Source: a virus. From it: a stretch of 23,059 nt of DNA. The notes under the pieces were generated by a model. That model worked only from the letters and a program-made list of their open reading frames with translations, made no database searches and had not been told where the DNA came from. Within the stretch, counting starts at the first letter, position 1. Every line of letters starts with the position of its first letter. The stretch is from the IMG/VR virus record IMGVR_UViG_3300023176_001945, positions 1 to 23,059 of that record; one strand, written 5' to 3'. The position numbers and the translations under genes are program-made. Shown here piece by piece: positions 3,168 through 21,475 of the stretch.

Positions 3168-3917
3168 ATGAGTAAAGCAAGAGATTTAGCAGACTTAATT
3201 GCTGCAGGTAATCCCCTAGCAGATGGGACTGTTGAGGTTGCTGACATCAGTGACCTTACAGCTACTGCAACAGAATTGAACTACGTAGATGGTGTTACAA
3301 GTGCAGTACAAACACAGATAGATACAAAAGCTCCTACAGCAAACCCTACTTTTACTGGAACCGTTACTTCTCCTACAGTTAATGCTTCAACAGAACTTCA
3401 GATAGGTGGGACTGCCATTACAGCTACTGCTGCTGAATTGAACTACGTAGATGGTGTTACATCTAATGTTCAAACACAACTTGATGCAAAGCAAGCTGCT
3501 TCTACTGCTGTTACTACATCAACTACTTTTGGCGGAGATGTCAGTGGTACTTACGATGCTCTTGTTATTGCAGACGACAGTCATAATCACACCATCTCAA
3601 ACGTTGATAACCTGCAGACAACACTAGATGCTAAACAAGAGGAGTTTACTCCTAACGAAGTAACTACTTCTACTACAGCATCTGCAGACAATAGATATTT
3701 TCTTAACGGAGCTACTATTACTCTGACATTACCTGCTTCTCCTACGGTAGGGGATACAGTTGCTATTACAGAGATTGGTGGTAACGCAGACAACATTATA
3801 GGACGTAATGGATCTAACATTATGAGCCTAGCAGAGGACATGACTGTTGATGCAGCTTATGCTTCGTTCCAGTTACAATACGTAGATGCTACCATTGGTT
3901 GGGCTATAGCACATTAA
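3168..3917 (+). CDS. Short tail fibre protein (249 aa)
   Basis: The N-terminus (MSKARDLADLIAAG) and the ATELNYVDGVTS repeats resemble fibre proteins I know from marine phages. Two copies of the repeat (about residues 31-44 and 85-98) each lead into a VQTQxDxK helix. A short segment with FGGDVSGTYDALVI and HNHTISNVDNL follows, then the C-terminal beta module (GDTVAITEIGGN, IGRNGSNIM, YVDATIGW), which closely matches the end of the fibre at 1-1596. The ribosome site AGGGGA lies just upstream of the ATG. It sits between two Cys-rich proteins, so the order fibre, Cys-rich, fibre, Cys-rich repeats. A role as trimeric connector or minor fibre is likely. Whether the beta module anchors the next protein or points outward cannot be told from sequence. 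Confidence 0.8.
   Translation: MSKARDLADLIAAGNPLADGTVEVADISDLTATATELNYVDGVTSAVQTQIDTKAPTANPTFTGTVTSPTVNASTELQIGGTAITATAAELNYVDGVTSNVQTQLDAKQAASTAVTTSTTFGGDVSGTYDALVIADDSHNHTISNVDNLQTTLDAKQEEFTPNEVTTSTTASADNRYFLNGATITLTLPASPTVGDTVAITEIGGNADNIIGRNGSNIMSLAEDMTVDAAYASFQLQYVDATIGWAIAH
3258..3461 (+). repeat. Direct repeat of 42 bases, two copies 162 bases apart
   Basis: Bases 3258-3299 and 3420-3461 are nearly identical, differing mainly in one Ala/Thr codon pair. They encode TATATELNYVDGVTS and TATAAELNYVDGVTS. The near-identity at DNA level suggests fairly recent duplication or gene conversion within the fibre gene. Confidence 0.8.
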
Positions 3918-7066: not shown

Positions 7067-7993
7067 GTGAAAAAACTGTTTATGATTGACGGAGGTGCAG
7101 GTCGTGCTATTGCAGCTATCCCTGCCCTCATTAAATACGCAAAGAAGAATGATGACTTTGCAATACTAGTACATGGTTGGGATACACTATACTGGGGTAT
7201 TTCTGAACTACAAGACAAAACCTTTAACCCTGAACAAAAGGGTATCTTTGAGCAGGTTGTGTCTAAGGCTGAAGAAATTATATCTCCTGAGCCATATCGA
7301 GTACCAGGTTACTTTAAACAAGAGAAGTCTTTGGCAGAAGCTTTTGACTACTTGATTAACAACACACATGATCATTCTGATCTAGGTGTTCCTGTTCTTA
7401 AGACTTCCAAGATGGAAGAGATTAACGCAGCAGGAATGTACTTAGATGTAAAGAACCAGCAGCAGAAACAAAAGAATATTGTTCTACAACCCTTTGGTCG
7501 TTCTGCTCAGAAACATCCTACTGGTGTTGTTGTTGATGAGTCATCTCGTTCTCTTGACCCCCAATCGTACCTAAAGCTAGTTAAAAAACTTAGCACTAAG
7601 TACAACCTAGTTCTTATGGCAGAGCCAGACTTCCATCTGCCAGACGACACCTACACCGTGAAGCCACAGGCAGACCTAAGAATGTGGACTGCTTTTATTG
7701 GTTCAGCAGATTATTTTGTTGGTGTAGACTCAGTTGGTCAGCACATGGCTAGGGCATTAGGCACACCTGGAACAGTTATTGTTGGTTCTACGTTTGCTAT
7801 CAACACAACTTACCCAGACTATTTTAACATCGTAGAAAAGAAGGATGCTAAGAAGTACTCACCTATTCGTATTTCAGGTCTTGAGAGTCACCTAGCTGAT
7901 AGAGCTAACGACACACTCATGGACTTTAGTGATGAAGAGATCAATGCAATGTATAACAACATTGTCAAAGACATTGAGAAAAAGGTGAAGTAA
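7067..7993 (+). CDS. GT9-type glycosyltransferase (heptosyltransferase-like)
   Basis: This 308-residue protein begins at GTG 7067, just after a purine-rich ribosome site; the next ATG lies five codons in. The C-terminal part has the donor-site signature of GT-B family 9 (ADP-heptose:LPS heptosyltransferases): SADYFVGVDSVGQHMARALG (213-232), then GTPGTVIVGST (232-242). Near the N-terminus, DGGAGRAIAAIPAL (8-21) resembles the family's Gly-rich loop, and LQPFGRSAQKHP (140-151) matches the region that begins the second Rossmann domain. The nearby ADP-heptose genes make an ADP-heptose donor likely. The acceptor may be host LPS or a virion protein. GT9-like domains also occur in protein heptosyltransferases, so both options stay open. 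It overlaps the carbamoyltransferase by one base. Confidence 0.75.
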   Translation: MKKLFMIDGGAGRAIAAIPALIKYAKKNDDFAILVHGWDTLYWGISELQDKTFNPEQKGIFEQVVSKAEEIISPEPYRVPGYFKQEKSLAEAFDYLINNTHDHSDLGVPVLKTSKMEEINAAGMYLDVKNQQQKQKNIVLQPFGRSAQKHPTGVVVDESSRSLDPQSYLKLVKKLSTKYNLVLMAEPDFHLPDDTYTVKPQADLRMWTAFIGSADYFVGVDSVGQHMARALGTPGTVIVGSTFAINTTYPDYFNIVEKKDAKKYSPIRISGLESHLADRANDTLMDFSDEEINAMYNNIVKDIEKKVK

Positions 7994-9696
7994 TGAATAT
8001 CTTAGCAATCAACCCAGGACACAATGGGTCTGCTGCTCTACTGGTAGATGGTGACCTAAAGTTCTACATTGAAGAAGAACGTCTGTCTCGTAGTAAGTAT
8101 GATGGAAATCCCTTCAAAGGTATGATGGAAGCACTACGTTACGGCGTAGATATCTTAGTTCTTGGTGGTACCCACGAAGAATTTCCTAGACTACCTTGGA
8201 CTGGTGAAGATCCTTATTCTGGTTTCCTTCGTAAGTTTAATCCTAACCTACAAGTTATTAACGTAGGTAGTGCACACCATATAGGACATGCAGCAGGTGC
8301 TTTCTACAACTCAGGGTTTGATGAAGCTGCAGCAGTTATCGTAGATGGATCTGGTACTCGTAGAGAGATTGACATAAACGGTGAGTTTAAAAACCCAGGT
8401 TTTGAAACAGAGTCTATCTTTAATTGTGATTACGAAGAAGGCATTAAACCTGTCTTTGCTTCTTACGGTGGTAACTATGACACACAACGTGTTATCAGTG
8501 AAGATACAGAAATGGATAGTGCAATCACACTAGTGAAAGCATACGAAGCTGTGTCAGAATACCTTGGTTTTGGTTTTATTGAAGCAGGTAAGACTATGGG
8601 TCTTGCACCCTACGGAAAAGAAAACGAATTTATACCTAGTCTTTTCTTTAATGGCAGAGGAAACAAAAACGTATTTGTTCCAAATTACCCTGCAGGTGCT
8701 CACGTAGACCACAGCAGACATCCTTTTTTAGAATTAAAAGAAGATCCTCGTGCTTGGCACAAAGACCCTAGTAAGGTGACAGATGCTGCTAAAGATTTAG
8801 CTTGGGCTGTACAAGATGAAACCCAAACTCTTGTTGGTGATTTGATTGAGAAAGCTGTAGACAAGACAGGACAAAAGAATATTGTAATTGCAGGAGGCTA
8901 CGGACTAAACTGTGTAGCCAATTACTATTACAAGAAACGTTTCCCTGACCTTAATATCTACGTTGATCCTATTTCACATGATGGTGGTACAGCCATTGGT
9001 TTAGCACAGCTAATATATTATGATCAAACAAAAGACACTGAGAAACGTCCACTAAGTACATTGTACCTTGGCCCTGAACGTACTGAAAACTATGATCTAG
9101 AAGGGTACGACACAAAGGATGTTACCCCTGCTGATGTAGCCAAGCTGATTGCTGAGAAGAACATTGTTACTTTGTTCCAAGGTAGATCAGAGGCAGGGCC
9201 AAGAGCACTAGGTAATCGTTCTATTCTGTACGATCCCACAGATCCTAACGGTAAGGACACAGTGAACAAGGTCAAAGGACGTGAGTGGTTTAGACCATTT
9301 GCAGGGTCAATGCTCAAGGAATACTTTGAGGAATGGTTTGACACATACGGAATGGAAGAGACACCATTCATGATGTATGCAATGGACTTCAAGACTGAGA
9401 AGCATGGTGAAGTTCCTGCTATCACACACGTAGATGGTACATGTCGTATTCAGACTGTAACCAGAGAGCAGAACGAAGCCTATTACGATCTGATTGAAGA
9501 GTTCCGTAAGATCACTGGTGTACCAATCCTGTTCAATACAAGCTTTAACCTAGCAGGTGAACCACTTGTAGAAACACTAGAGGATGCACTACACACCATG
9601 AAGAACTGTGACATTGACTACATGTACCTACCAGAAGTAGGGAAGCTTGTTACGGTAGCTTCTGAGCAAACTGAAGAAGATTCTCAAACACCTTAG
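7993..9696 (+). CDS. Carbamoyltransferase of the NodU/CmcH/TobZ family
   Basis: The length of 567 residues is normal for the family. The N-terminal Kae1-like part starts NILAINPGHNGSAALL and holds the metal-site motif HHIGHAAGAF (95-104), AGKTMGLAPYG (198-208) and GGYGLNCVAN (301-310). The C-terminal YrdC-like part has GRSEAGPRALGNRS (397-410), REWFRPFA (430-437) and FNTSFN (514-519). These enzymes activate carbamoyl phosphate with ATP and place a carbamoyl group on a sugar or other hydroxyl. In Pseudomonas aeruginosa a related enzyme carbamoylates a core heptose, so a carbamoyl-heptose product is a reasonable inference here. The start codon overlaps the stop of the glycosyltransferase gene (TAATG). 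The 3' end overlaps the convergent phosphatase gene by 47 bases. Confidence 0.9.
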   Translation: MNILAINPGHNGSAALLVDGDLKFYIEEERLSRSKYDGNPFKGMMEALRYGVDILVLGGTHEEFPRLPWTGEDPYSGFLRKFNPNLQVINVGSAHHIGHAAGAFYNSGFDEAAAVIVDGSGTRREIDINGEFKNPGFETESIFNCDYEEGIKPVFASYGGNYDTQRVISEDTEMDSAITLVKAYEAVSEYLGFGFIEAGKTMGLAPYGKENEFIPSLFFNGRGNKNVFVPNYPAGAHVDHSRHPFLELKEDPRAWHKDPSKVTDAAKDLAWAVQDETQTLVGDLIEKAVDKTGQKNIVIAGGYGLNCVANYYYKKRFPDLNIYVDPISHDGGTAIGLAQLIYYDQTKDTEKRPLSTLYLGPERTENYDLEGYDTKDVTPADVAKLIAEKNIVTLFQGRSEAGPRALGNRSILYDPTDPNGKDTVNKVKGREWFRPFAGSMLKEYFEEWFDTYGMEETPFMMYAMDFKTEKHGEVPAITHVDGTCRIQTVTREQNEAYYDLIEEFRKITGVPILFNTSFNLAGEPLVETLEDALHTMKNCDIDYMYLPEVGKLVTVASEQTEEDSQTP

Positions 9697-10297
9697 TCTT
9701 CTTTCTTAATTTCTCCTTAGAGAACTTTTGAAGATCTTTTTCAGTAGCTACCCCATGACCAGTACGTACTAAGATTGGGGTAGCACCAATACGTTCTGCA
9801 GCTTTAAGGTCTGTGATCTTATCACCTACGTAGAACCCTTTATCTTTAAATCTAATTTTGTTGTTGAATATTTCTTTCTCAGTACGATGAAACATCCCAA
9901 TATTAGGTTTAGCATAGTAGTCTTCTTTCAGGGATGACTCAGAATAAAACAAACCATCAATGGAGTAGATACCTGCATTGCCAAACACCTCAAACATACG
10001 TTGATGAATGGCTTCTACCTGTGCATGTGTCTGCTCTTTCTTTATAATACCGCCTTGGTTAGTTAGAATAACTACTTTGTAGCCTTTTAGCCTAAGCATA
10101 CGAATAGCTTCCAGTGAACCAGGGATAGGCTCCCAGTCGTCAGGATCAGTAAGATAGTGTCCTCTGTCTATGTTGATGACACCATCACGATCTAAACCAA
10201 CAATAGATTTAGGGAACACAGTAGGCCAATCAGAGGGTAGGTTTTGTTGTTGAACTTGTTGTGGGTCTTGTTCTATGATATGCTTAAATCTGGACAT
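9650..10297 (-). CDS. gmhB: HAD phosphatase, GmhB-like (heptose-1,7-bisphosphate 7-phosphatase)
   Basis: This 215-residue HAD hydrolase carries the expected motifs: nucleophile LDRDGVIN (35-42, D36 and D38), LTNQGGI (78-84), AKP (129-131) and YVGDKITDLKAAE (156-168). The DRDG/TNQ pattern is that of GmhB and the HisB N-terminal domain. GmhB removes the 7-phosphate of D-glycero-D-manno-heptose 1,7-bisphosphate between the kinase and nucleotidyltransferase steps, and both partners are adjacent. The Cys/His zinc loop of E. coli GmhB is missing: residues 119-129 contain no Cys or His. About 30 extra Gln-rich residues precede the domain. It is the only minus-strand gene in the cassette, with a strong AGGAG ribosome site 5 bases before the ATG. 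A histidinol-phosphatase or other sugar phosphatase role cannot be excluded. Confidence 0.75.
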   Translation of the reverse strand: MSRFKHIIEQDPQQVQQQNLPSDWPTVFPKSIVGLDRDGVINIDRGHYLTDPDDWEPIPGSLEAIRMLRLKGYKVVILTNQGGIIKKEQTHAQVEAIHQRMFEVFGNAGIYSIDGLFYSESSLKEDYYAKPNIGMFHRTEKEIFNNKIRFKDKGFYVGDKITDLKAAERIGATPILVRTGHGVATEKDLQKFSKEKLRKKTKVFENLLQFAQKLP

Positions 10298-10302
10298 AAC
10301 AA

Positions 10303-10307
10303 CTCCT
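10303..10307 (-). promoter_or_regulatory. Ribosome binding site of the GmhB-like gene
   Basis: The complement reads AGGAG, five bases before the ATG at 10297. It lies in the 29-base gap between two divergent start codons. The plus-strand gene has its own AGGA at 10315-10318. There is no room here for full promoters in both directions, so at least one must lie inside a neighbouring gene. Confidence 0.75.
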
Positions 10308-10326
10308 TTTTAACAGGATAATACAC

Positions 10327-10737
10327 ATGAAGAAAGTATTTGTCAATGGAGCCTTTGATGTAATACATTCTGGACACCTTGATCTTATTGAATTTGCAGG
10401 GATGTTAGGTGGTCATTTACTCGTAGCTATTGACACAGACAGTAAAATAAGGTATAACAAGGGAGCAGATAGACCTTTTAACAATCTGAAAAATCGGAAG
10501 CATCTGATGTCAATGTTGAAGCCTGTTAATGCTGTTGTGTCGTTTGATTCAGATGAAGACTTGGCAGCTATTATTAAGAGGTATGAACCTGATGTTATGG
10601 TGAAAGGTTCCGATTGGAGGGGGAAGAAGATTGTTGGTGAGGAATACTGTAAAGAGGTAGTATTCTTTGAGAGGACCAATAATGAATCAACAACAAAAAC
10701 CCTCCAAGATTTTGTTGATAGGAGACGGATGCTATGA
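10327..10737 (+). CDS. ADP-heptose synthase domain (HldE C-terminal type nucleotidyltransferase)
   Basis: This 136-residue stand-alone cytidylyltransferase-like protein matches the C-terminal half of HldE (RfaE domain II). The start is VFVNGAFDVIHSGHLDLIEF, with the nucleotide-binding HxGH motif (HSGH, residues 14-17). It continues with RPFNNLKNRKHLMSML, PDVMVKGSDW and ESTTKTLQDF, the Ser/Thr-rich region conserved in this subfamily. It should transfer AMP from ATP to heptose-1-phosphate to give ADP-D-glycero-D-manno-heptose. An AGGA lies 8 bases before the ATG. The kinase half is encoded immediately downstream in an overlapping gene, so the two HldE activities are split and in reverse order compared with E. 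coli. Related glycerol-3-phosphate cytidylyltransferases are less likely given the neighbours. Confidence 0.82.
   Translation: MKKVFVNGAFDVIHSGHLDLIEFAGMLGGHLLVAIDTDSKIRYNKGADRPFNNLKNRKHLMSMLKPVNAVVSFDSDEDLAAIIKRYEPDVMVKGSDWRGKKIVGEEYCKEVVFFERTNNESTTKTLQDFVDRRRML
10669..10674 (+). promoter_or_regulatory. Ribosome binding site that fixes the kinase start
   Basis: GAGAGG lies 7 bases before the ATG at 10682, inside the end of the nucleotidyltransferase gene. A longer reading would need a TTG at 10667, which lacks such a site, so ATG 10682 is preferred. Confidence 0.65.
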
Positions 10738-11437
10738 CGAGTACTGTTATGGTGTCGTAAACAGGCTAAACCCAGAGGCACCAGTACCAGTACTAGATTG
10801 GGATACCACTGTTCGTAAGTTAGGAATGGCTGGTAATGTGCTACAAAACTTTCAAGCACTTGGTGTAGATTGTCACTATGACATTCTATATAAAGAAACA
10901 AAGAAACGTTACATAGACTCAAAGACTGGTCAACAGATTGTAAGAGTTGATGTACCTCTAATAGAAGAAGAACATGATGAGCATCGGTTACACAACTTTA
11001 GTGATTATGATGCTGTCGTTATCTCTGATTACAATAAAGGTTATGTCTCCACTTTTGCCATCCAAAGTATCTTAGAGAGTTACAACGGTCCAGTATTTAT
11101 TGATACAAAGAAGCAAGACTTAAAACTATTTAATAAAGCTTTTGTAAAGATAAATCAGTACGAGTATGAAAATAGAACATCTGATGCAAACAACATGATT
11201 GTTACGTTTGGGTCAGAAAAAGTCGTCTACAAGGATAAACTATACTTACCACCAAAAGTAGATGCACATGATGTTTGTGGGGCAGGAGACACCTTTTTAG
11301 CAGCTTTGGTGTACAACTACCTACAAACAGACAGTATAGAAAAAGCTATTAAGTTTGCTATGAAAGCTGCTGCGGTAACTGTTCAACATGTCGGTGTGTA
11401 TGCACCTCGTTTAGAGGAGATACAACATGCGGCTTAA
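10682..11437 (+). CDS. Heptose-7-phosphate kinase domain (HldE N-terminal type, PfkB family)
   Basis: The protein has 251 residues from ATG 10682. The N-terminal part (ILLIGDGCYDEYCYG, then RLNPEAPVPVLDW and GMAGNVLQNFQALG) follows the HldE kinase pattern of a substrate loop, a Pro-Glu-Ala-Pro-Val-Pro stretch and a Gly-rich turn. The C-terminal PfkB signature is DVCGAGDTFLAAL, whose GAGD Asp is the catalytic base. It should phosphorylate D-glycero-D-manno-heptose 7-phosphate at C1. HldE kinase domains are usually about 310-330 residues. This one is shorter, with the middle lid/dimer region and the stretch before the ATP site reduced. It overlaps the nucleotidyltransferase gene by 56 bases and the cupin by 11, so these genes are translationally linked. 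Other PfkB sugar kinases are possible, but the context favours heptose. Confidence 0.82.
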   Translation: MNQQQKPSKILLIGDGCYDEYCYGVVNRLNPEAPVPVLDWDTTVRKLGMAGNVLQNFQALGVDCHYDILYKETKKRYIDSKTGQQIVRVDVPLIEEEHDEHRLHNFSDYDAVVISDYNKGYVSTFAIQSILESYNGPVFIDTKKQDLKLFNKAFVKINQYEYENRTSDANNMIVTFGSEKVVYKDKLYLPPKVDAHDVCGAGDTFLAALVYNYLQTDSIEKAIKFAMKAAAVTVQHVGVYAPRLEEIQHAA

Positions 11438-11783
11438 TGGACATGTTAAAAAGGGTTGGGGGTCAGAACTGATATGGGCAACCAACGACAAATACTGTGG
11501 TAAGTTTTTACATTTTAACGAAGGTGCTAAGTTTTCTATGCACTTTCATAGAGAGAAAGATGAGACTTGGTATGTCCTTAAGGGAAAATTTAAAGTTATC
11601 TACATTGATACAAAAGATGCAAGCACTCATGAAAAGACTCTTACAGCTGGCGATACGTGGCGTAACGAGCCTTTGGTCCCGCATCAAATCATTTGTGAAA
11701 AGGAAGGCACAGTAATAGAAGTATCTACTCCTGATTCGGTAGAAGATAACTATCGTGTAGGTCGGGGAGATAGCCAGAAATGA
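11427..11783 (+). CDS. Single-domain cupin in the sugar cassette
   Basis: This 118-residue protein is a cupin with an intact metal site. Motif 1 is FSMHFHREKDETWYVLKG (36-53), giving ligands H39, H41 and E46. The fourth is H86 in VPHQII. It opens with GHVKKGWGSELIWATND, resembling the cupin domain of type II mannose-6-phosphate isomerases and related phage or LPS-cluster proteins. Possible roles are sugar-phosphate isomerisation or epimerisation. It lies between the kinase and HldD, overlapping them by 11 and 4 bases, and so belongs to the pathway. No GmhA isomerase is visible, and whether this cupin replaces it is speculation. The fold call is firm; the reaction is unknown. Confidence 0.75.
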   Translation: MRLNGHVKKGWGSELIWATNDKYCGKFLHFNEGAKFSMHFHREKDETWYVLKGKFKVIYIDTKDASTHEKTLTAGDTWRNEPLVPHQIICEKEGTVIEVSTPDSVEDNYRVGRGDSQK

Positions 11784-12550
11784 AAATACTAGTTACTGGC
11801 AGCAATGGGTTTATTGGCAAGAACATGGTCAATGCCCTGTCTCCACACCACGAAGTAGTTAAAAACGAATGGGGTATGTCGTTTCCTAAAGTAAAAGGGT
11901 TAGATTGGGTTATACACTTAGGAGCTATTAGTTCTACTACTGAAACAAATATTAGTCGTATATATAAACAAAATATAGAGTTTAGTATTAAGTTGTACGA
12001 GGAGTGTATCAAACACAACGTTAAGTTTCAATTTGCTTCTAGTGCTTCTGTGTATGGGCTAAAGTCAGACTTTAAAGAGACATCACCTCTTGATCCTCAA
12101 AACCACTATGCTCGAAGCAAAGCACTGTTTGAAAAGTACGTAGAGTTTAGGAATGCTCCTATTACTACACACATATTTAGATACTTTAACGTACACGGTC
12201 CCCAAGAGGAACACAAAGGAAACCAAGCAAGCCCACAAACAAAGTTTATGGAGCAAGCTAAAACAACAGGTAAAATCAAACTGTTCAAAGGATCAGAAAA
12301 GTTTGTAAGAGATTTTATCCATGTTGGTAAAGTTGTAATGGACCACCAAAAGTTTTTTGATATAGAAGAATCAGGTATATGGAACTTTGGAACAGGAACT
12401 ACACAAAGCTTTTATGATGTAGCTTTAGATGTTTCTAACAAGACTGGTGCTTCTATTGAGTTTATTGATTTTCCAAATAATCTAAAAGGTAATTACCAAG
12501 AGTTTACTAAAGCAGACACAACAAAGTTTAGAAAAACTCTTTCAGTTTAA
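11780..12550 (+). CDS. hldD: ADP-glyceromanno-heptose 6-epimerase (HldD-like)
   Basis: This is a short-chain-type nucleotide-sugar epimerase of 256 residues. It has the NAD loop GSNGFIG (7-13), HLGAISSTTE (46-55), SSASVYG (87-93), the YxxxK pair Y110/K114 in HYARSK, and FRYFNVHGP (133-141). HldD-specific features follow: HKGNQAS (145-151, with a Lys matching the second catalytic Lys of HldD), LFKGSEKFVRDFIHVG (168-183), WNFGTGTTQSF and LKGNYQEFTKAD near the end. It should convert ADP-D-glycero- to ADP-L-glycero-D-manno-heptose, the donor of heptosyltransferases. E. coli HldD has 310 residues. The missing portion is mainly in the loop region after the first Rossmann strand. The start overlaps the cupin stop as ATGA. 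It is one of the best-supported calls in the cassette. Confidence 0.88.
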   Translation: MKILVTGSNGFIGKNMVNALSPHHEVVKNEWGMSFPKVKGLDWVIHLGAISSTTETNISRIYKQNIEFSIKLYEECIKHNVKFQFASSASVYGLKSDFKETSPLDPQNHYARSKALFEKYVEFRNAPITTHIFRYFNVHGPQEEHKGNQASPQTKFMEQAKTTGKIKLFKGSEKFVRDFIHVGKVVMDHQKFFDIEESGIWNFGTGTTQSFYDVALDVSNKTGASIEFIDFPNNLKGNYQEFTKADTTKFRKTLSV

Positions 12551-12561
12551 GGTAAAGTATA

Positions 12562-15500
12562 ATGGCATGGAATGACCCTAAACCAGTAAAAGATGGATCT
12601 GGTAACGTAGTAAAGGATGGCTTAGGCAATCCTGTTATGAATACCCCTGGTGCTGCACATCCAACAGACAATGATCGTCCTGCTCCTGCCCCTGCAAACT
12701 CAGGGACTACTGCTGACACACAAGGTGAAAATCAGATAATTCCCCCTCAACGTGATGCTACAGTTGGCGGAGGAACTGGTACTTGGTCAATGCCAGAAGA
12801 AAGAACCTATAAGGCTACTGTAGATGGTATTGATATTCCTACTTGGGTTCATGATGCCTACATAAGTTCTTATGTAAGTACTGCAAAAGCAGGTAATCCT
12901 CGTAAGCCTAACATGCGTGAGATGATGGAAGCTCTTGCAGGTAAATCTGTAGAAGAAATTTACGATTCTGGAGAAGATTACAGTGCCCTAACTCGTAAGG
13001 CAAGTGATCTTCTGTATGGGGTTGTAGGCTCTAATGAAGAGACCCGTAATTGGGACGTTATTATGGAGGCTGCAAAGACTCCAGGTACTGGTGAAATTGA
13101 TCCAGGAAGACTTGAAGCTGCTGCATCACTAGCCACAGAGCAAATGTATGGTGGTTATGATATACAGTATGATCAAGTTGAAGGTACAGATCAACTGCTG
13201 ATATATTCTAAAGCAAACGGAAATTTACTGACTGCTATACAACCCAATAACAACGACTGGAACCTGAGAAATGGTAGTGGTTTTGGTCGTATAAGAAGTT
13301 TTGGTATCAGGGATGATATGCTTAAGGCAGCTATGCCCACTGCTATGCAAGAAAAATATGCAACTTACCTTAAAGCATATGATGAAGTGTATAATCCTTG
13401 GTGGGATAATTACCAAGACCTTATGGGGGTAGACTTTCTCAGTGGTTTTACTCCCCCTGAACTAAAGCAAACAAAAGTTGTAGACCAAACTATTACTGGT
13501 AACGAAGGTCAAACAGGTACAGGTACTACAGGAACGGGTACTGGTACTACTGCAACAGATAACGGAGATGGTACCACTACTTACAATGTCGGTGAAACTA
13601 CTTATGACACTGGCGTAAACACTGGAACTACAACTTACAATACTGCAACTGGTAATGTAGATACTAGTAATCTAGGCGGTGCAGGTACTAATACTTACGA
13701 ACAAGCTGCCATATCAGGAACGTTTCAAAAACCAGTACAAACTGCAGGACTATCTTCTGTTCCAGATCAGGTTACAGTAAAAAATAACTATACTGGTACT
13801 AATATGGCTAACCTCACTTCTCAATCTCAAGCAGGTTTTGGTGGACAAGCTCAGTATACAAACCAGTTTGGTCAGTCTGTAACTGTTACTGAAGATGCCT
13901 CTGGTAAACCTTTGACATACGTACCTCCAGGATTTAATAAAGCTGCTGCACAAGGTGGTGTAATAGCTATGGCAGAGGGTGGTGATGTACAACTTGCTAG
14001 AAAGTTCTTAGGGTTTCAAGGTCCAGCAGATCAACTTACAAACTTCCTATCTGCTAACCCTGCTGCTGCTGCACGTATGGGTAAGTACCAACAAGCAATG
14101 TCTGGTATGGCTAGAGTAAGACCAGGTGCAGATGAGGGTACGACAGGATTAAGTCTTGAAGACTTCCAAAAAATGCAGCAGGGTCTTGTTACACAAACTA
14201 TGCAACCTATTCAGGGTGCAGTAGGTCAAATACAACCACAACAAGCAGACTTTATTGCTCAGGATGCAGGTAAAGTTTATGACGTAGCAAATATGGCAAA
14301 TGCAGCTACAGTCCCAACTGTTGCTCAAACAGGTATGCCTGTGGTTTCACAAACATCTACTATGACTCCTGAGACTATAGCTGCAGATGTTAAACAAGAA
14401 ACTGCTGGCGTTACTGCACAAACTGGTACACCTACACAACAGGTAACAGGTCAAACACAAGACAGCACTATGGTCTCTGGATTGCAGGGTCAAACAGGTC
14501 AATCTATAGATGTTACAGGTGCTCCTACACGTACTTTACAGACAGGGCCAAATGGTGAACTAATTACTGGTACTGGTGTAGACCAAGCTCAAGTAGATGC
14601 AGCATTTGGTACTGGTGAAGTAGCTGCTGCTTCTGTACAAGATGAACTAGCAGGACTGATGCAACAGTTTGAGGGTGGAGATACACCTGCATGGGCTGCT
14701 GGGTCTATGCGTAAAGCTACACAGATGCTTGCAGCTAGAGGTCTTGGTGCTTCGTCTCTTGCAGGTCAAGCTGTTATTCAAGCTGCTATGGAAGCTGCAC
14801 TACCTATTGCTCAGATTGATGCTGGTAACAAACAGCAGATGGCTTTGTTTAAAGCAGAGCAAAGGTCTAAATTCTTAGGTATTGAATTTGACCAAGCATT
14901 CCAAGCTAAAGTTATGAATGCAGCTAAAGTTTCTGAGATTGCAAACATGAACTTCACTGCTGAACAGCAGGTTGCTCTTGAAAACTCTCGTGCAGCTAAC
15001 ACGATGGAATTAACTAATTTAAGCAACAAACAAGCTGTACTTATGGCTGAAGCTGCTGCATTGTCGCAGCTAGATATAGCTAACCTAAACAACCGTCAGC
15101 AAGCTGCTGTAGTAAATGCACAGAACTTCTTGCAGATGGATATGGCTAACTTGTCTAATGAACAGCAGACAGAGTTGTTCAAGTCTCAGCAAAACATTCA
15201 AGCATTACTTACTGATCAAGCTGCTGAGAATGCTGCTGAACAGTTTAATGCTACAAGTGAGAATCAAACAGATCAGTTCTTTGCAAACCTAACTGCAAAC
15301 GTAGGTCAGTTCAACGCCTCTCAAGCAAATGCTATGGATCAGTTTAACGTAAACACTGTAAATGCTTTGAGGCAGTTTAATGCAGAAGTACAAAACCAGA
15401 GAGATATGTTTAATGCTCAGAATGGTCTTGTTGTAGCACAGGCAAATGCTCAGTGGAGACAGAATATTGCTACACTAAATAATGCTGCACAAAACGAAAG

Positions 15501-15762
15501 TAATATGGACTTTGCAAAAACCATCAATGCTTTAACCTCTAAGAACCTAGATGAGATCTGGCAACGTGAACGTGACAACATGAGCTTTGCATTTACCTCT
15601 AGTGAGTCAGCTATGGACAGAGCTTTGCAGATTGTTCTTGCAGATAAAGAACTAGAGTCAGTTAGGACACAACTTGCAGCAGAAGAAGATGCTGCTTCCA
15701 CTTCACTGATGTTTAGATTCTTGTTTGGTACAAGTAATAAAGGTCTACTTGGTGGTATTTAA
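12562..15762 (+). CDS. Large putative virion protein with hendecad coiled coil (1066 aa)
   Basis: No named family is recognised. A Pro/Ala/Gly-rich leader (residues 1-75) is followed by a compact region to about 305 with many aromatic residues. A Gly/Thr-rich low-complexity linker follows (about 314-375). Next comes a mixed region containing AAQGGVIAMAEGGD (about 465-478), a motif I associate with marine phage virion proteins, and then a Gln/Thr-rich stretch. From residue 796 to about 1037 the protein is a run of 11-residue repeats rich in Asn, Gln and Ala, and predicted helical. There are no membrane spans and no catalytic motif. The next gene encodes a muramidase-like protein and the block ends with another very large protein, so an internal or ejection protein, or a long tail component, is the best inference. 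AAGGT precedes the ATG. Confidence 0.65.
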   Translation: MAWNDPKPVKDGSGNVVKDGLGNPVMNTPGAAHPTDNDRPAPAPANSGTTADTQGENQIIPPQRDATVGGGTGTWSMPEERTYKATVDGIDIPTWVHDAYISSYVSTAKAGNPRKPNMREMMEALAGKSVEEIYDSGEDYSALTRKASDLLYGVVGSNEETRNWDVIMEAAKTPGTGEIDPGRLEAAASLATEQMYGGYDIQYDQVEGTDQLLIYSKANGNLLTAIQPNNNDWNLRNGSGFGRIRSFGIRDDMLKAAMPTAMQEKYATYLKAYDEVYNPWWDNYQDLMGVDFLSGFTPPELKQTKVVDQTITGNEGQTGTGTTGTGTGTTATDNGDGTTTYNVGETTYDTGVNTGTTTYNTATGNVDTSNLGGAGTNTYEQAAISGTFQKPVQTAGLSSVPDQVTVKNNYTGTNMANLTSQSQAGFGGQAQYTNQFGQSVTVTEDASGKPLTYVPPGFNKAAAQGGVIAMAEGGDVQLARKFLGFQGPADQLTNFLSANPAAAARMGKYQQAMSGMARVRPGADEGTTGLSLEDFQKMQQGLVTQTMQPIQGAVGQIQPQQADFIAQDAGKVYDVANMANAATVPTVAQTGMPVVSQTSTMTPETIAADVKQETAGVTAQTGTPTQQVTGQTQDSTMVSGLQGQTGQSIDVTGAPTRTLQTGPNGELITGTGVDQAQVDAAFGTGEVAAASVQDELAGLMQQFEGGDTPAWAAGSMRKATQMLAARGLGASSLAGQAVIQAAMEAALPIAQIDAGNKQQMALFKAEQRSKFLGIEFDQAFQAKVMNAAKVSEIANMNFTAEQQVALENSRAANTMELTNLSNKQAVLMAEAAALSQLDIANLNNRQQAAVVNAQNFLQMDMANLSNEQQTELFKSQQNIQALLTDQAAENAAEQFNATSENQTDQFFANLTANVGQFNASQANAMDQFNVNTVNALRQFNAEVQNQRDMFNAQNGLVVAQANAQWRQNIATLNNAAQNESNMDFAKTINALTSKNLDEIWQRERDNMSFAFTSSESAMDRALQIVLADKELESVRTQLAAEEDAASTSLMFRFLFGTSNKGLLGGI
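14947..15672 (+). repeat. About 22 tandem 11-residue (33-base) repeats, with a 22-residue super-repeat
   Basis: From residue 796 to 1037 of the 1066-residue protein the sequence divides into 11-residue units without insertion. Units at 796, 818, 840 and 862 share an xNxxxxQxxxx pattern 22 residues apart (for example TNLSNKQAVLM and ANLSNEQQTEL). Units at 895, 917, 928, 939 and 950 begin with FN (for example FNASQANAMDQ and FNVNTVNALRQ). An 11-residue period is the mark of a right-handed coiled coil. Later units are more diverged. Confidence 0.7.
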
Positions 15763-15773
15763 AAGGTGATAAG

Positions 15774-16523
15774 ATGAGTATCTACAGAAAAGACACATTA
15801 GATATGTACCGTAAAGGTTTAGATGCTGGTGGTACAGCCCTATATGAAATTCGTAAAGCTGAGATAGCAGGGCTTGGTGCTCGTAGGGGTAAGATTAGCA
15901 AAAGAGTTGGTGGTAACATTGGAGAAACTCCTGCCAGAATGTTCAAAGCTTTTGAGGATATTAATAAGATAGCTGCTGAACGTAAGGTACGTCTAGCTGC
16001 TGCAGGAATGGATGAAGATGGTTACTTAGATATTTCTCCTAGTGCAGAAGCTGGAGACCAAGTGCATGTAAATAAAAAGACTAGCTCTCTTATCCCAGAA
16101 TACCCTGAAGGTTTGACAAGTAAAAAGATAGAAGGTATCATTAGACGGGAAGCCAAGCTTCGTAACATGGACCCTGAAATTGCTATCAAAATATATAAAT
16201 CTGAGGGTTTTAATTCATACCAATCAACGATTACAAAAGGTAGTCAGAAAAAAGTAGGTGGCCAAGAAGCATCTTATGGGCCTTTCCAATTATATACAGG
16301 TGGTGGCCTAGGTAACGATTACGAAAGGCTAACAGGAAGAACTCTTGCTGAAGACAATACCTTGGAAGGTATTACAATGCAAATTCAGTTTTCTCTAGAT
16401 ATGGCAATTGATAAGGGTTGGTCATTTTGGAAGGGAAGTAAAGTTGCAGGTGTTGGTGAGAGAGATGGTCTAGACGGTGCAACAGCAGTTTATAATTGGA
16501 GATCTGAAGATGAAGACACTTGA
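15774..16523 (+). CDS. Virion-associated muramidase-like protein (lysozyme-fold domain)
   Basis: The protein has 249 residues. The N-terminal 100 are basic and helical, likely a virion-binding region. The C-terminal part resembles a lysozyme or transglycosylase domain: a helix with PEIAIKIYKSEGFNSYQS, in which E144 of the SEGF motif is the likely catalytic acid, then EASYGPFQLYTGGGLGN (165-181), like the SxGxxQ motif of lytic transglycosylases. A helical part with LEGITMQIQFSLDMAIDKGW (197-216) follows. Such proteins open the peptidoglycan during DNA entry. There is no signal peptide or holin beside it, so a virion role is preferred over lysis. The ribosome site AAGGTGAT lies just before the ATG. 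The 3' end overlaps the next gene by 14 bases. Confidence 0.65.
   Translation: MSIYRKDTLDMYRKGLDAGGTALYEIRKAEIAGLGARRGKISKRVGGNIGETPARMFKAFEDINKIAAERKVRLAAAGMDEDGYLDISPSAEAGDQVHVNKKTSSLIPEYPEGLTSKKIEGIIRREAKLRNMDPEIAIKIYKSEGFNSYQSTITKGSQKKVGGQEASYGPFQLYTGGGLGNDYERLTGRTLAEDNTLEGITMQIQFSLDMAIDKGWSFWKGSKVAGVGERDGLDGATAVYNWRSEDEDT
16498..16501 (+). promoter_or_regulatory. Ribosome binding site that fixes the 16510 start
   Basis: GGAG lies 8 bases before ATG 16510, inside the end of the muramidase-like gene. A longer reading from GTG 16477 has no such site and would overlap its neighbour by 47 bases instead of 14. Confidence 0.6.
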
Positions 16524-17022
16524 GAGGCCAATTCCAGGTCAATCACTAACAGCTGAACCAAGAAGTCAGGCGTATGAAAGACCTCCAGAAGTATCCGATC
16601 CTATTGAAGCATTAGATATGCACCTAGATAATCTTTCAGAGCCAGGTGCAATGGAAGATGCATTACACTTTTTAGATTATGGACTTGATCTTGTAACTCT
16701 TGTCGAAGGTATTCTTCGTAGTGCTGTGATGGAAGGTGTACACAACATTGATGTTAGCCTTATCATTGCCCCTGCTCTTCACGAGTTTATTAAGAACTTT
16801 GCTGATGAGGCTGGAGTAGACTACGATGAGGGCTTTACAAATGAACGTGAAGAAAAAGCTCTATCATACAGACGTGATGTAGAAGCTGCAAGAAAGATGC
16901 TTGCTGAAGTAAGAGAAGAAGAAGAGCCTAAACGAGATCCACTTCCAGTAATGATGGAAGAGGAACAAGAACCAGTACAAGAAGAAGAACCAGCTAAAAC
17001 TGGACTAATGGCGAGGATGTAA
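16510..17022 (+). CDS. Conserved phage protein, probable virion component (170 aa)
   Basis: Function is not recognised. From ATG 16510 the protein starts MKTLERPIPGQSLTAEP, then a Pro-rich PYERPP-like stretch. A central helical, rather hydrophobic block follows (LDYGLDLVTLVEGILRSAV, then NIDVSLIIAPALHEFIKNFA), which looks well folded and conserved. The last 60 residues are highly charged and Glu-rich (EEEEPKRDP, EEEQEPVQEEEPAK), ending in TGLMARM. The central hydrophobic helices could pack against the membrane or a portal, but no clean membrane span is present. Its place between the muramidase-like gene and two large genes, with tight spacing on both sides, suggests a structural or assembly role. 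No catalytic residues are evident. Confidence 0.65.
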   Translation: MKTLERPIPGQSLTAEPRSQAYERPPEVSDPIEALDMHLDNLSEPGAMEDALHFLDYGLDLVTLVEGILRSAVMEGVHNIDVSLIIAPALHEFIKNFADEAGVDYDEGFTNEREEKALSYRRDVEAARKMLAEVREEEEPKRDPLPVMMEEEQEPVQEEEPAKTGLMARM

Positions 17023-17024
17023 CT

Positions 17025-17981
17025 ATGGGGTTAAGTGCAGTAGGCATAATGGACTGGGTCGAAGCTACCGACAAAGAAACGGCCCGTAGGGAAGAATTAA
17101 CCACTAAGTTAATTGAGATGGATCTTAGATGGGGTGGTAGTAGTGGCTCTGGTCGTGGTGGTAGTAGTGAAAACGTAGCTACTAAAGCTGCAGTATTAAA
17201 AAAGATACAGGCAAGACTTCCCGAAGATAGTAAGATAGCTCCACAGCTTGTTGGTGCTGATCTAGAAACTCTAGAATTATTTGATAAAGGTCAAACAGAA
17301 TTAGAAGGTTTTTATTCAAGGAATGATCTACCTTATACTCCAGAGCAAGCTGAGGCAGATGTAACTAGTTTTTATAGAGAAGTTGTAAAATCAGGTGGTA
17401 AAGTAGATGTAGAAGATATCTATGCTATGCTTGGTATAGATGAAGATATGGTAGACGAAGTTGCCTACGGTGATAAAACCTACGGAGATCTTGCAAGAAG
17501 TATTGCAGAGGGCAAAGAGGAAGTTGGACTAGCATTTAGCTTCAGAGAACCTGTCAAACCTCTATCAGGTAGTGAACAAGCAAGTATCAGAGACTTGTAC
17601 ATAGATAACCTAAGACCTGCTATTAGAGCTGCAATAACAGATCTCAATCGTCAACTAGCTAAACCAGATTCTAACACAGATACAACTGCATTAGCACAAC
17701 GATCAGAAGAATTAGGAAAAGCACTTTCAGCTTTGGACAAGGGAGATTACACCCTTGCAACTAATTTTGTTGGCCCTCAAATGGCTATTGATATTATGAG
17801 AACTAACCCAAGGTTTAAATCTTATAATTATCTTATTAATAAGGATTTAGATTTTGCTGGTGATGGTGAATTACTAAAAGAAGCTATTAGAGTAGGACTA
17901 CTTAAAGCAGGAGATAACTATCGTAGTGGTAACAAATTTGGAACTGTTACTGAAGAGCAAGTTAAAGTGGCAATGGGTTAA
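17025..17981 (+). CDS. Uncharacterised probable virion protein (318 aa)
   Basis: No family is recognised. Residues 1-35 are a charged helix (WVEATDKETARREELTTKLI). A short Gly/Ser-rich linker (GGSSGSGRGGSS, about 37-48) follows, and then a mainly helical acidic body. There is no signal peptide, membrane span or cysteine, and no enzyme motif that I can see. The ATG is two bases after the preceding stop, with GAGGAT in the end of the upstream gene as a ribosome site. The next gene begins two bases after its stop, so it belongs to the same late operon and was probably made in similar amounts to its neighbours. An internal virion or tail-tube-associated role is inferred from position only. Confidence 0.6.
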   Translation: MGLSAVGIMDWVEATDKETARREELTTKLIEMDLRWGGSSGSGRGGSSENVATKAAVLKKIQARLPEDSKIAPQLVGADLETLELFDKGQTELEGFYSRNDLPYTPEQAEADVTSFYREVVKSGGKVDVEDIYAMLGIDEDMVDEVAYGDKTYGDLARSIAEGKEEVGLAFSFREPVKPLSGSEQASIRDLYIDNLRPAIRAAITDLNRQLAKPDSNTDTTALAQRSEELGKALSALDKGDYTLATNFVGPQMAIDIMRTNPRFKSYNYLINKDLDFAGDGELLKEAIRVGLLKAGDNYRSGNKFGTVTEEQVKVAMG

Positions 17982-17983
17982 TT

Positions 17984-20900
17984 ATGGATGAAAGTTTTAT
18001 CAACTTAGGTATCAATGAAGAGATCCAAGAAGAGTCCCCTCAAAATTTTATAGACCTAGGTATAACAGAAAAAGAAAAAACAGAAATACCCCCAGAGCAA
18101 AGCTTTGAGGCTTACAACATCATTCGTGAACTTGACGGTATTGAACAAGACTCACTTACCGAAACAGCTATCCTTGAAAATAAAAACCTTGTTGAAGGTA
18201 TCCGTAACATCATGAAAGCTCGTTACAGTGAAGAGACTCGTAACAAGTTTAGTTTTGATGAGAGATACGACAGAGATATGTCTGATGAGGATCTAATTCA
18301 AGAGTGGCAGAATTGGATGAGGTCACTTACTGGTGGTCAGACCGTGACGACAGGTAATGACGTTGCGTGGTTTGCTATGGCTGATGATGAACAAAGAGCT
18401 TTGATGGGTGCTTCTTTTGAAATCATGGATAAGATGCCAGGCATATTTAATGATAATGTTACTTGGGGAGAAACTTTTGACGGCATAAGAGATTATGCTA
18501 GAGCAGGTATATGGGATCCCAGTACTGTCTTAGGTCTCGGCATTGGTCGTCTATTTACAAAAGTCAGCAGTAAGTCTGCAGGTTTTGGTATGCGTAAAAT
18601 AGCACAAGAAGCATATAAGAATGCCTTGAAAAGAGGTATGACCAAAGAACAAGCTAAGAAAGTAAGAAAAGATGTCATCAAGAAGGGCTTTAGAAAAGCT
18701 GGCATAAAAGAAAAACTACCTGCTGTAATTGCTGGTACATCTACTGATGCAGCTATTGCTGTAGGTACTGACCAACTGTATCAAGGACTACGTATCGGTA
18801 GTGGGGTACAAGATAGCAGAAGCTTGCCACAGTCTGTAGGAGCTGCATTAGGTGTGATAGTAATGCCAGCTTTGACTGTGGGTACGAAGACACTTGCCAA
18901 AGGTATGGGAGAGATTCTTAACTTCAAGACATACGTAGACATATCTTCTAAGTTTGCTGGACGTAGTAAAGAAGAAATTACCGAACAGGTAATGGAAAGA
19001 ACAGACATAAAGCTGATTGACACAAATCTTAGAAAGATGTTTTCTGATTTTAGTGCTAATATGGATACATATACACCTTGGTTAAAAGCCAGAGAACAAG
19101 CTAAGGAGTCCGTAAAACAATCTAAAACTGATGTAGCCAGTGGAGACTTACAGGACTTGTTTGAATCTGTATTCCTATTCGGTAAACCAGAAGAAGGTAC
19201 AGCTCAAAAAGGCCTTATCTACAGTATGGCCGAGGCTGGGTTTGTGTATATCCCAAGATATAAGGGCGATAAAATCTCTAACTTTATTGGAGATGCTATA
19301 AAATATTTGCCAGATGAAACTGTAAAATCTATTCTTGCTTCGTTTAGAAAACAGGTTGATGTAAAAGGCACAGGGTTAAACAAAATTAAAACCGCCAAAG
19401 ATTTATCTAACTGGTTTATAAAGAGATCATCTGAAGGTGGTACAATACTTCGTAACAGAAAAGTTGCACAGGATATTCTAAATAAAGGTTTTGAGAATAT
19501 AACACTTGAAGATATGTTTAACCTTCATAAGGTAGGTAAACCTATAGCAGAAATTGCAGCAAGTCCTCAAGATCGTGTGAAGTATATACAGTCTTTGTGG
19601 AAACGTGCACTTACTTCTCACCCAAGTACAACTGGTCTTAACATCAAAGGTTGGGCATATACATCAAGTTTAAATAATATATCTGACGTTGTGCTTGCAG
19701 CAGTGCTAGGGTTACAAGGTAGGGGACAAGAAGCAAAAGGATCTATCCTTGGTGCAGCTCGTCGTGGTTTTAATGTGTTAGACTATGATGCCACAATCGA
19801 ACAGGGTTTGAATTACCTGAAGTTTAGACCTGAAGTTGGTGAAGAACTTTTGTCTGAAGTATCTGGTGGTGTTGAAAGTAGAAACGTACTTGAGAGACTT
19901 AACTTAGACCCTAAGTCTAAGATAAACCAGGCTACAGAAAAAACTATTAGTGGTATCCAAGCAGCAACTGGTGTTAAGCTTCAAGATGAAGTTACTAAAA
20001 TGATTTCATTTATGAGTGCTATGGACCAGAATATTATGAAAGCCTATGGTGTAAACTATAACCAGTTTATGAAACGTAAAGATGCATTCGTTGAGATGCA
20101 CACCAGAAAGTTTCTGGATGAGGTACAGACACCAGCTATCGACAGAGCTAAAAAAGAAACTTATTCTTTTTCTTGGTTAGGTAAAAAAGGTGATGGCCTA
20201 TTTCTTGGCATTGCTAAAAATGTAGAAAAGTTTTCTAACTCTGCAGGTGGTGGTTTCCTAATTCCATTTGGTAGGTTCTTTAACACTGTTACAGCAATGT
20301 TTGGTGACTACAGTGGGTTCAATGCATTGAAGCATGTAACAAGTAGAGTATACAAACTAGACAATCCTTTTGATAATGAAGGACAGGTTCTTTTGTCTAA
20401 AGGTATTGTAGGTGCAGGTGTAATCTTTGGACCTAGACTTTCTATAGGTGGCTCTTCAGAATATGAAGCTGCAAAAGAAAGAGTTAGAAACGGTGAAAGT
20501 TGGAACTTTGATATTCTGCCTGATGGTTCTCGTAGAGACTATACATATGATGCTCCACAGAACTACCCCAGAATTATAGCTCAGGCTTTAGCTCACAGAC
20601 AAATTGATGGTCGTATACCAGACCCACTCAAAGAAGAAATGTTTGAGTTATTTGTCGGTCAAACCTTCCGTCAAACTGGTGAGGTCTACGACACATTTAA
20701 AGACTACTTCTCTACTGTGCTTGACTCAGACTTAGAAGATTCTTTCATGGCCAGTGTAGAACTACTTAGTGGTGCATTCTCAAGGATTGCTTCTGGTAGT
20801 ACTAGATTCTTAGAACCTATCAACACCTTTGCAATGTATGCCACAGGTGACTTTGCTTCCCCTGATCGTAGACAAGGTAACAAAGTTCTAAACGAATCTA

Positions 20901-21475
20901 TCAGATACATCGACAAGATTCCTGAGATGTTTGGTGTAGAGGTGACTGATCAACCAGATCGCAAGATAGCCACCAGAGATAGAGGTAACTTTGATGCAGG
21001 TCGTGTAGCACTTGGTGCCAGAGGTGATAGAGGTGCATCTCCTGCAGAACGTGTAGCTGCATCTGTAGGTAAAGCCTCATGGAAAGCAGTGATGTTTGAT
21101 GGGGAGCCTGAACTTAAAAACAGACTTGATGATTTTGTACAGGAAGTGTTTAACCTGGAAGCATCTAAGCTCATTGAAGATGGATTCCTAGAACTTCCAC
21201 TATCAAAAAGAGAAAACAAATATAAAGAATTGGTCACAAAAATTAAAACAAGAGCTAAAGCAATCTTAGCTGGAAGCCCTAAAAAAGATGATCAACTTTT
21301 AAAGTTAGAGCAAGAAGTTTTAAGTAAGCCAAAACGACTTAGAGAGGATGCCCTAGAGCAACTGGAATATGATGGAGAAATAACAGATTTAAAAAGTGAG
21401 GAGGGTGGTGAAGAGAAACTTCAGTTTTTACTTTACCTAATGAAATACGCAGACGAAATAATGTATGCAGACTAA
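17984..21475 (+). CDS. Very large probable internal virion or ejection protein (1163 aa)
   Basis: No family is recognised. The acidic N-terminus has two copies of a short motif, FINLGI (5-10) and FIDLGI (22-27), a likely docking peptide. A long helical body follows. It includes a basic Lys/Arg-rich helix near residues 200-245 and short hydrophobic stretches (SVGAALGVIVMPALTVGT, and FLIPFGRFFNTVTAMFG) that are amphipathic rather than clear membrane spans. The C-terminal 250 residues are highly charged. It is the last plus-strand gene and ends 6 bases before a terminator hairpin. Size, position after a muramidase-like gene, and lack of enzyme motifs fit a large ejected protein such as those of T7-like phages, but this is analogy of position, not sequence similarity. 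Confidence 0.62.
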   Translation: MDESFINLGINEEIQEESPQNFIDLGITEKEKTEIPPEQSFEAYNIIRELDGIEQDSLTETAILENKNLVEGIRNIMKARYSEETRNKFSFDERYDRDMSDEDLIQEWQNWMRSLTGGQTVTTGNDVAWFAMADDEQRALMGASFEIMDKMPGIFNDNVTWGETFDGIRDYARAGIWDPSTVLGLGIGRLFTKVSSKSAGFGMRKIAQEAYKNALKRGMTKEQAKKVRKDVIKKGFRKAGIKEKLPAVIAGTSTDAAIAVGTDQLYQGLRIGSGVQDSRSLPQSVGAALGVIVMPALTVGTKTLAKGMGEILNFKTYVDISSKFAGRSKEEITEQVMERTDIKLIDTNLRKMFSDFSANMDTYTPWLKAREQAKESVKQSKTDVASGDLQDLFESVFLFGKPEEGTAQKGLIYSMAEAGFVYIPRYKGDKISNFIGDAIKYLPDETVKSILASFRKQVDVKGTGLNKIKTAKDLSNWFIKRSSEGGTILRNRKVAQDILNKGFENITLEDMFNLHKVGKPIAEIAASPQDRVKYIQSLWKRALTSHPSTTGLNIKGWAYTSSLNNISDVVLAAVLGLQGRGQEAKGSILGAARRGFNVLDYDATIEQGLNYLKFRPEVGEELLSEVSGGVESRNVLERLNLDPKSKINQATEKTISGIQAATGVKLQDEVTKMISFMSAMDQNIMKAYGVNYNQFMKRKDAFVEMHTRKFLDEVQTPAIDRAKKETYSFSWLGKKGDGLFLGIAKNVEKFSNSAGGGFLIPFGRFFNTVTAMFGDYSGFNALKHVTSRVYKLDNPFDNEGQVLLSKGIVGAGVIFGPRLSIGGSSEYEAAKERVRNGESWNFDILPDGSRRDYTYDAPQNYPRIIAQALAHRQIDGRIPDPLKEEMFELFVGQTFRQTGEVYDTFKDYFSTVLDSDLEDSFMASVELLSGAFSRIASGSTRFLEPINTFAMYATGDFASPDRRQGNKVLNESIRYIDKIPEMFGVEVTDQPDRKIATRDRGNFDAGRVALGARGDRGASPAERVAASVGKASWKAVMFDGEPELKNRLDDFVQEVFNLEASKLIEDGFLELPLSKRENKYKELVTKIKTRAKAILAGSPKKDDQLLKLEQEVLSKPKRLREDALEQLEYDGEITDLKSEEGGEEKLQFLLYLMKYADEIMYAD

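Follow-up and report, generated by a model that had tools for sequence, protein, structure and literature searches.

The window examined here is a stretch of 23,059 nucleotides from a virus, positions 1 to 23,059 of the IMG/VR record IMGVR_UViG_3300023176_001945. One of its genes (P0002, 12562..15762, plus strand, defined by its open reading frame [ORF] and translation) encodes a protein of 1,066 amino acids (aa), and in its final third lies an array of 11-residue units, or hendecads. The array occupies aa 750 to 1020 (14809..15621, plus strand), as marked by self-match, length, and glutamine pattern. Its relatives differ in length by whole hendecads, glutamine forms one continuous stripe along it, the hydrophobic residues beside that stripe change flank partway, and its gene belongs to a conserved gene block. 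What might such a protein do? The explanation favored here, to which we give a probability of roughly 0.5, is that the array forms a helical tube with a right-handed twist, part of the machinery by which short-tailed phages of the HMO-2011 type eject their DNA.

An array that changes length by whole hendecads

A sequence-only reading of the window had placed an array of 11-residue units with a 22-residue super-repeat at 14947 to 15672, which corresponds to aa 796 to 1037. Both repeats are real. When that stretch is compared with itself at lags of 1 to 59, the top five lags are 22, 33, 44, 55, and 11, and lag 22 scores 0.62 per residue versus a mean of -0.48 in 1,000 shuffles (standard deviation, 0.146; maximum, -0.01). 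Large hydrophobic residues are distributed non-uniformly over 11 positions, to a degree reached in 0 of 2,000 shuffles, and the same shuffle test finds no non-uniformity at periods of 7, 10, 12, 13, 14, or 15. Taken by halves, the value is reached in 0 of 2,000 shuffles for the first half and in 219 of 2,000 for the second, making the second half the weaker part of this one sequence. The array is indeed present at aa 796 to 1037, but its true start lies 46 residues earlier; between the anchor residues A750 and R1020 it measures 271 aa, or 24.6 units.

The relatives provide the clearest evidence of a constrained unit. Related loci were retrieved by patterns lying partly within the array and its anchor, so that array-less relatives would be missed and the claim applies to recognizable arrays. 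Among 277 loci, hidden Markov models of the anchors recognized 235 ORFs with the N-terminal anchor, 228 with the C-terminal anchor, and 224 with both above the score limits; removal of exact duplicates left 187 distinct arrays. In 186 of these 187, array length is congruent modulo 11, and the register that the sequence-only reading expected to persist in homologues is thus kept. Twelve lengths occur: 172, 194, 205, 216, 227, 238, 271, 282, 293, 370, 392, and 612 aa. The sole misfit (L150) is 4 residues shorter, and the difference falls inside the C-terminal anchor. A750 and R1020 are identical in all of a set of 96 sequences, which includes many close relatives, and the eight array lengths found between them are all equal modulo 11. 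A +4 change seen in some relatives falls after R1020. The longest array (L149; 612 aa, 55 units) consists of highly regular 22-residue repeats.

Is this rule peculiar to the array? In a 50-row alignment, it is obeyed by eight of eight distinct array lengths, while in three control stretches of the same protein it is met by 5 of 30, 1 of 19, and 4 of 24 distinct lengths. The array flanks, which vary little in length, yield 1 of 4 and 1 of 5. A quick tree requires at least 22 array length changes. The tree used 107 rows, 14 of the 187 arrays having been lost when an anchor was not located and rows more than 88% alike at the same length having been removed.

The array can be divided into two blocks. 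Block 1 (14809..15243, plus strand) has 145 aa in the window and carries the 22-residue super-repeat; block 2 (15244..15621, plus strand) has 126 aa and is built of QFNA-type 11-mers. The two vary separately. Block 1 ranges from 46 to 486 aa, with 31 of 32 non-redundant arrays in register; block 2 has either 126 or 148 aa in most of them (25 of 32), and 30 are in register. The misfits arise from misplacement by the program that located the boundary and from differing landmarks: L260 lacks the landmark, L092 was split at another one, and L240 was misplaced by 6 residues (its block 1 is 68 aa when counted by hand, in register).

At the DNA level, the repeat of the window has left little behind. 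At lags of 33 and 66 nucleotides, third codon positions match at 31.5% and 28.4% versus 28.4% expected, first positions at 35.7% and 40.0% versus 28.2%, and second positions at 39.5% and 45.1% versus 30.5%. Because third positions are near expectation, no clear DNA-level repeat remains, and what the window preserves is a repeat of the protein.

The faces of the helix

A helix with 11 residues in three turns has a period of 11/3, or 3.67, and it is at this period that glutamine recurs. Over aa 741 to 994 the glutamine power at 11/3 in the 50-row profile is 15.5, a value reached in 0 of 5,000 column shuffles, while pooling asparagine with glutamine weakens it (3.3; 173 of 5,000 shuffles). Across 33 arrays of 172 to 612 aa, the mean glutamine power at 11/3 is 9.68 versus a shuffle mean of 1.0 (maximum of 1,000 shuffles, 1.62). 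The peak is at 3.66, and the mean power at 3.5, 3.6, and 3.75 is 0.8 to 1.1. This set was reduced to at most 60% likeness among arrays of equal length only, it excludes rows missed by the locator, and the shuffles ignore kinship among arrays. A heptad coiled coil was considered and rejected, the 33 arrays having no average power at 3.5.

Charged residues tend to lie across the helix from glutamine, at about 170 degrees in the 50-row profile (power, 5.1; 26 of 5,000 shuffles) and at a circular mean of 156 degrees in the 33 arrays (R, 0.67), a tendency with exceptions. The hydrophobic residues are less simple. A single continuous hydrophobic seam was rejected, since the power at 11/3 is 0.08 over the 242 aa from 796 to 1037, and the best single hydrophobic period over that stretch is 3.74. 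In the 50-row average, however, the peak is 3.68 in aa 741 to 884 and again 3.68 in aa 884 to 994, with a phase of 121 degrees in the former versus -70 degrees in the latter. The near-nil power of the whole array is explained by the cancellation of two halves of differing phase. Block 2 by itself is strong (8.12; 1 of 5,000 column shuffles). The same arrangement is found in relatives, in which hydrophobic residues stand +98 degrees from glutamine in block 1 (R, 0.95; the 22 of 32 arrays with at least 66 residues there) and -115 degrees in block 2 (R, 0.85; all 32 arrays, with outlying angles of 131 and 163 degrees in two). The array had been called uninterrupted. That is true of its 11-residue spacing, which is unbroken, but not of its hydrophobic stripe, which shifts to another side of the helix at about aa 884.

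What do these periods imply for structure? In coiled-coil theory, a period above 3.6 implies right-handed supercoiling, and the proposed right-handed coil is therefore supported by the period of 3.67. A length of about 35 nm for the stretch first described is likewise correct as arithmetic, if the helix is straight and each residue adds 0.15 nm. As for an asparagine- and glutamine-rich core, these two residues make up 25.6% of aa 741 to 1037 (net charge, -13), the glutamine stripe is continuous, and the two may form the core. A globular fold would have counted against the coiled coil, and AlphaFold2 (AF2) predicted none for the array. It instead gave a single 145-residue helix at aa 900 to 1044, with a predicted local distance difference test (pLDDT) score of about 50 to 70 by block. 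The helices of block 1 are broken and of low confidence, pLDDT being below 50 across much of the array's first part.

A candidate conduit for DNA

The closest parallel in sequence design is protein H of phage phiX174. Ten copies of residues 151 to 271 of H are described as forming a helical tube with a length of 17 nm, in which asparagine, glutamine, or arginine occupies 18 of 23 lumen positions and the first 33 residues are three hendecads (excerpts of PMC7354561). Over those 33 residues, hydrophobic and charged residues are offset from glutamine by +78 and -164 degrees; the corresponding values for the block 1 profile are +104 and -164 degrees. The two thus share hendecads, an amide-rich glutamine face, hydrophobic residues on its flank, charges roughly opposite, and the same proposed role. 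They also differ. The H tube passes from three hendecads through a transition into heptads, whereas the arrays run for about 15 to 55 hendecads with no heptad signal, and H forms its 17-nm decamer in a tailless single-stranded DNA phage, whereas the array comes from a double-stranded DNA podophage and has no sequence match to it. We infer a resemblance in design with no detectable homology: neither phmmer nor a profile search of PDB sequences matched H up to an E value of 1, although no search with an H profile was made. Within the podophages, the DNA-injection protein gp12 of Sf6 is reported, in part of PMC4755594, to form a decameric channel-like assembly, and it is set beside the array by description only.

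How might the array work? The direction of the helices, their oligomerization, the tube, its place in the virion, and its part in ejection are all inferred, and the steps may be imagined as follows. Several hendecad rods, lying side by side as long parallel helices, would assemble into a right-handed alpha-helical barrel. The glutamine face, recurring every 3.67 residues, would line the channel, and the charged face opposite would look outward. The flanking hydrophobic residues would join neighboring helices, by one flank in block 1 and by the other in block 2, and the switch at about aa 884 would then mark a change of packing. At infection the protein would exit the head and prolong the short tail so that it spans the cell envelope, and DNA would slide along the amide-lined wall, as has been proposed for protein H. 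The gain or loss of whole units would alter length with packing undisturbed, which is our proposed explanation for the quantized lengths.

A more ambitious version of this proposal, which we offer tentatively and hold to be somewhat less probable than not, is that the array is a modular ruler for genome delivery. At about 1.65 nm per unit, the conduit would be lengthened or shortened by whole hendecads with its amide-lined wall in register, would range from about 26 to 92 nm, up to several times the length of the phiX174 tube, and would have arisen independently of that tube by convergence.

The sequence-only reading had offered a helical tube or a tape measure. The face layout of phiX174 H favors the tube. 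Tape measure proteins with tandem 11-residue units are known, although no such description was found in the literature searched. These proteins set the length of long tails, whereas isolates of the HMO-2011-type group are described as short-tailed (part of PMC6918029), and a tail-length tape measure is unlikely for that reason.

Relatives, domains, and gene neighborhood

The window protein is that of a common marine phage. A search of viral_contigs returned 265 relatives, and the analysis retained the top 80, which lie in 79 loci. Among phages, 27 records match (two phages twice), and 25 of the 27 are annotated as hypothetical proteins. The named relatives are HMO-2011-type podophages, namely Roseobacter phages CRP-1, CRP-2, and CRP-9, Puniceispirillum phage HMO-2011, and Pelagibacter phages; remoter ones include Vibrio phage CHOED, Aeromonas phage MQM1, Pseudoalteromonas phage Slicky01, and rhizobial phages. 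The array is conserved in phages of SAR116, Roseobacter, Pelagibacter, Vibrio, and rhizobial hosts, and the N-terminal part varies.

To briefly describe the rest of the protein, all on the plus strand, a folded N-terminal domain at aa 81 to 290 (12802..13431; AF2 block pLDDT, 61 to 90) is missing in some relatives. It is followed by a glycine- and threonine-rich linker with predicted disorder at aa 295 to 426 (13444..13839; pLDDT below 50). In some relatives, such as L029 and L040 (625 to 631 aa), the array protein begins at about query residue 463 to 475, the N-terminal half being absent or separate in these and similar loci. Immediately before the array, a conserved module at aa 690 to 750 (14629..14811; P.WA ... 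RGLGASS ... ALPIA) has invariant or near-invariant columns and a length of 61 in 45 of 50 alignment rows. After the array comes a C-terminal segment (15622..15759) in which some relatives have the +4 insertion. None of the 50 rows has a strong hydrophobic segment there (no 19-residue window with a mean hydropathy of 1.6 or more). The end of the protein appears exchangeable among the relatives shown (loci L090, L093, and L081): CRP-738 and CRP-212, 2 of the 50, carry a Peptidase_S74 domain after the array, HMO-2011 has another extension of about 70 residues, and elsewhere the tail is short. S74 is absent from the window protein, which matches no family in Pfam, PHROG, or NCBIfam. Its full-length model has no Foldseek match in the PDB at an E value of 0.001 or below.

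The array gene belongs to a run of genes on the plus strand that recurs among relatives. Directly downstream is a gene for 249 aa (15774..16523). By PHROG matches, the genes in this slot are endolysin-like in CRP-9 and CRP-603 (two of five slot genes compared); of the other three, one weakly matches a tape measure, one matches a tail protein, and one matches nothing. The window's own copy has no match in Pfam, PHROGs, NCBIfam, or the PDB and looks transglycosylase-like by eye only. Next is a conserved acidic protein of about 180 aa with no assigned function (16477..17022, the start probably being 16510 from the alignment), which occurs downstream of the array in every one of the 173 loci whose downstream sequence reaches 3.5 kb or more. 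A 318-aa gene (17025..17981) then occupies a variable slot in a gp15-like position; it has a sequence match in only two other loci, and other genes fill the slot in isolates. The last gene of the block, in a gp16-like position, encodes 1,163 aa (17984..21475) and is mostly helical in its AF2 model (mean pLDDT, 73.3; predicted template modeling score, 0.71). In a set of loci retrieved with this protein as the query, the array gene precedes it in all 30 that reach 5 kb or more upstream; in the first set, it follows the array gene in 34 of the 41 loci that extend 7 kb or more downstream, some contigs belonging to both sets. A recognizable copy is present in only 1 of 10 annotated isolates, though large genes nonetheless lie downstream in them. 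Profiles of the 180-aa and 1,163-aa proteins found nothing convincing in the PDB or PHROGs. The model of the larger one has no Foldseek match at an E value of 0.001 or below, and its best VIA match (Z, 6.2 over 63 residues) is to unrelated chains; a T7 gp16-like chain is not among the fold matches listed, which is no evidence of absence.

This order is reminiscent of the ejection proteins gp14, gp15, and gp16 of T7 and gp7, gp20, and gp16 of P22, likewise podophages, in which late genes stand one after another and the last of them encodes a very large protein, and wall-hydrolase functions are nearby in some relatives of the array protein. The array protein would be an extra member of such a block, however, and roles are assigned here from size and position only. 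It also differs from the T7 proteins in having no detectable homology to gp13 to gp15 and no strong hydrophobic segment. That it is a large virion protein, as the sequence-only reading held, is suggested by gene order.

Upstream of the array gene are tail-fiber-like genes and a tail assembly chaperone. Two ORFs of the tail region (1609-3153 and 3930-6569) are very rich in cysteine (34 of 514 residues, 6.6%, and 78 of 879, 8.9%) and match nothing in Pfam, PHROG, or NCBIfam, and the ORFs adjoining this pair (1-1596 and 3168-3917) have no cysteine at all. Also within the virion gene region, 7067-12550 encodes a carbamoyltransferase, a HAD phosphatase, a cytidylyltransferase-like protein, a PfkB kinase, a cupin, and an NAD epimerase. 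This sugar cassette suggests synthesis of a nucleotide sugar, perhaps a heptose; its HAD phosphatase gene (9650-10297) is on the minus strand amid plus-strand genes.

Weighing the explanations

Several results weigh against a DNA-ejection tube. On the side of structure, AF2 models the protein with low confidence (mean pLDDT, 54.4) and is silent on oligomers, the hydrophobic power of 0.08 over the 242 aa is equaled in 9,237 of 10,000 shuffles, and the corresponding mean over the 33 arrays, 1.04, is at shuffle level. Block 1 alone is weak in hydrophobic power (2.36; 442 of 5,000 column shuffles reach it), in 4 of 33 arrays the charges are no more than 22 degrees from glutamine, and the comparison of angles with phiX174 H extends over three hendecads. 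On the side of homology, PDB sequence searches with the single sequence and the 50-row profile gave only unrelated hits with E values of 0.27 and above, and hhalign found no relation of two family profiles to single T7 gp13, gp14, and gp15 sequences or to DNA transfer proteins of the PVA1/199E37-1 type (P, 0.17 to 0.71 over both sets). CRP-738 and CRP-212 do match phrog_4287, a DNA ejection protein, and phrog_6121, a virion structural protein, but the phrog_4287 match covers the S74 domain alone in one and S74 plus the array end in the other, and S74 is the chaperone of endosialidase and also a fiber and spike chaperone. The open-access literature searched yielded no description of the array and no virion proteomics for this phage group, including CHOED and MQM1; in a search for hendecads in phages, phiX174 was, by title, the sole phage DNA tube.

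Could the array be part of an external fiber instead? Trimeric stalks with polar cores are known, and a right-handed trimeric coiled-coil shaft with polar core layers and a C-terminal assembly chaperone would agree with the S74 ends of 2 of 50 relatives and with the tail-fiber-like genes and chaperone upstream. The domain is missing from the window protein, however, and it is found likewise at the end of proteins of Salmonella phage 7-11, Vibrio phage 199E37-1, and Pseudoalteromonas phage H6/1 whose annotation is ejection or DNA transfer (by annotation, not experiment); no clear hendecad self-match was seen in 7-11 gp20 or Mwe-JY13. An array kept across diverse hosts beside a variable N-terminal part is also unlike a host-range fiber, and we consider a fiber unlikely. 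A rod in the head that organizes DNA or ejection proteins, with no conduit, seems more doubtful still. T7-type core proteins do have a pre-ejection core state (part of PMC8954989), and the net charge of -13 and an amide-rich face could allow contacts with other core proteins, but rods of 172 to 612 aa, about 26 to 92 nm if fully extended, would be long for a fixed core. The 11-residue repeats of synuclein and perilipin-type amphipathic helices raise the prospect of a helix lying on a membrane surface, and the 11/3 periodicity with polar and hydrophobic sides, clearest in block 2, is of this kind. Here, though, the constant face is glutamine, the hydrophobic side switches flank, and hydropathy is low (best 19-residue mean of the array: median, 0.73; highest, 1.21 in 50 rows), all of which makes a membrane helix highly improbable. 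Finally, the quantized lengths could in principle record mere slippage between DNA repeats, as unequal crossing-over in tandem repeats yields unit-sized changes with no selection. Third codon positions near expectation at lags of 33 and 66 in the window, the near absence of rule-breaking lengths in the array when they are common elsewhere in the protein, and the retained glutamine stripe all speak against slippage alone, which is very unlikely.

What the array may mean for genome delivery

How short-tailed phages bridge the cell envelope is an open question in the field, and the ejection tube proposed here would bear directly on it. Changes by whole hendecads would make the array a testable ruler: does tube length track the number of units? 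And do walls lined with amides serve more generally to let nucleic acid pass? Whatever the tube may prove to be, the quantized lengths are unusually clean evidence, of a kind that sequence by itself can supply, for a helical register maintained across this family of phage proteins.

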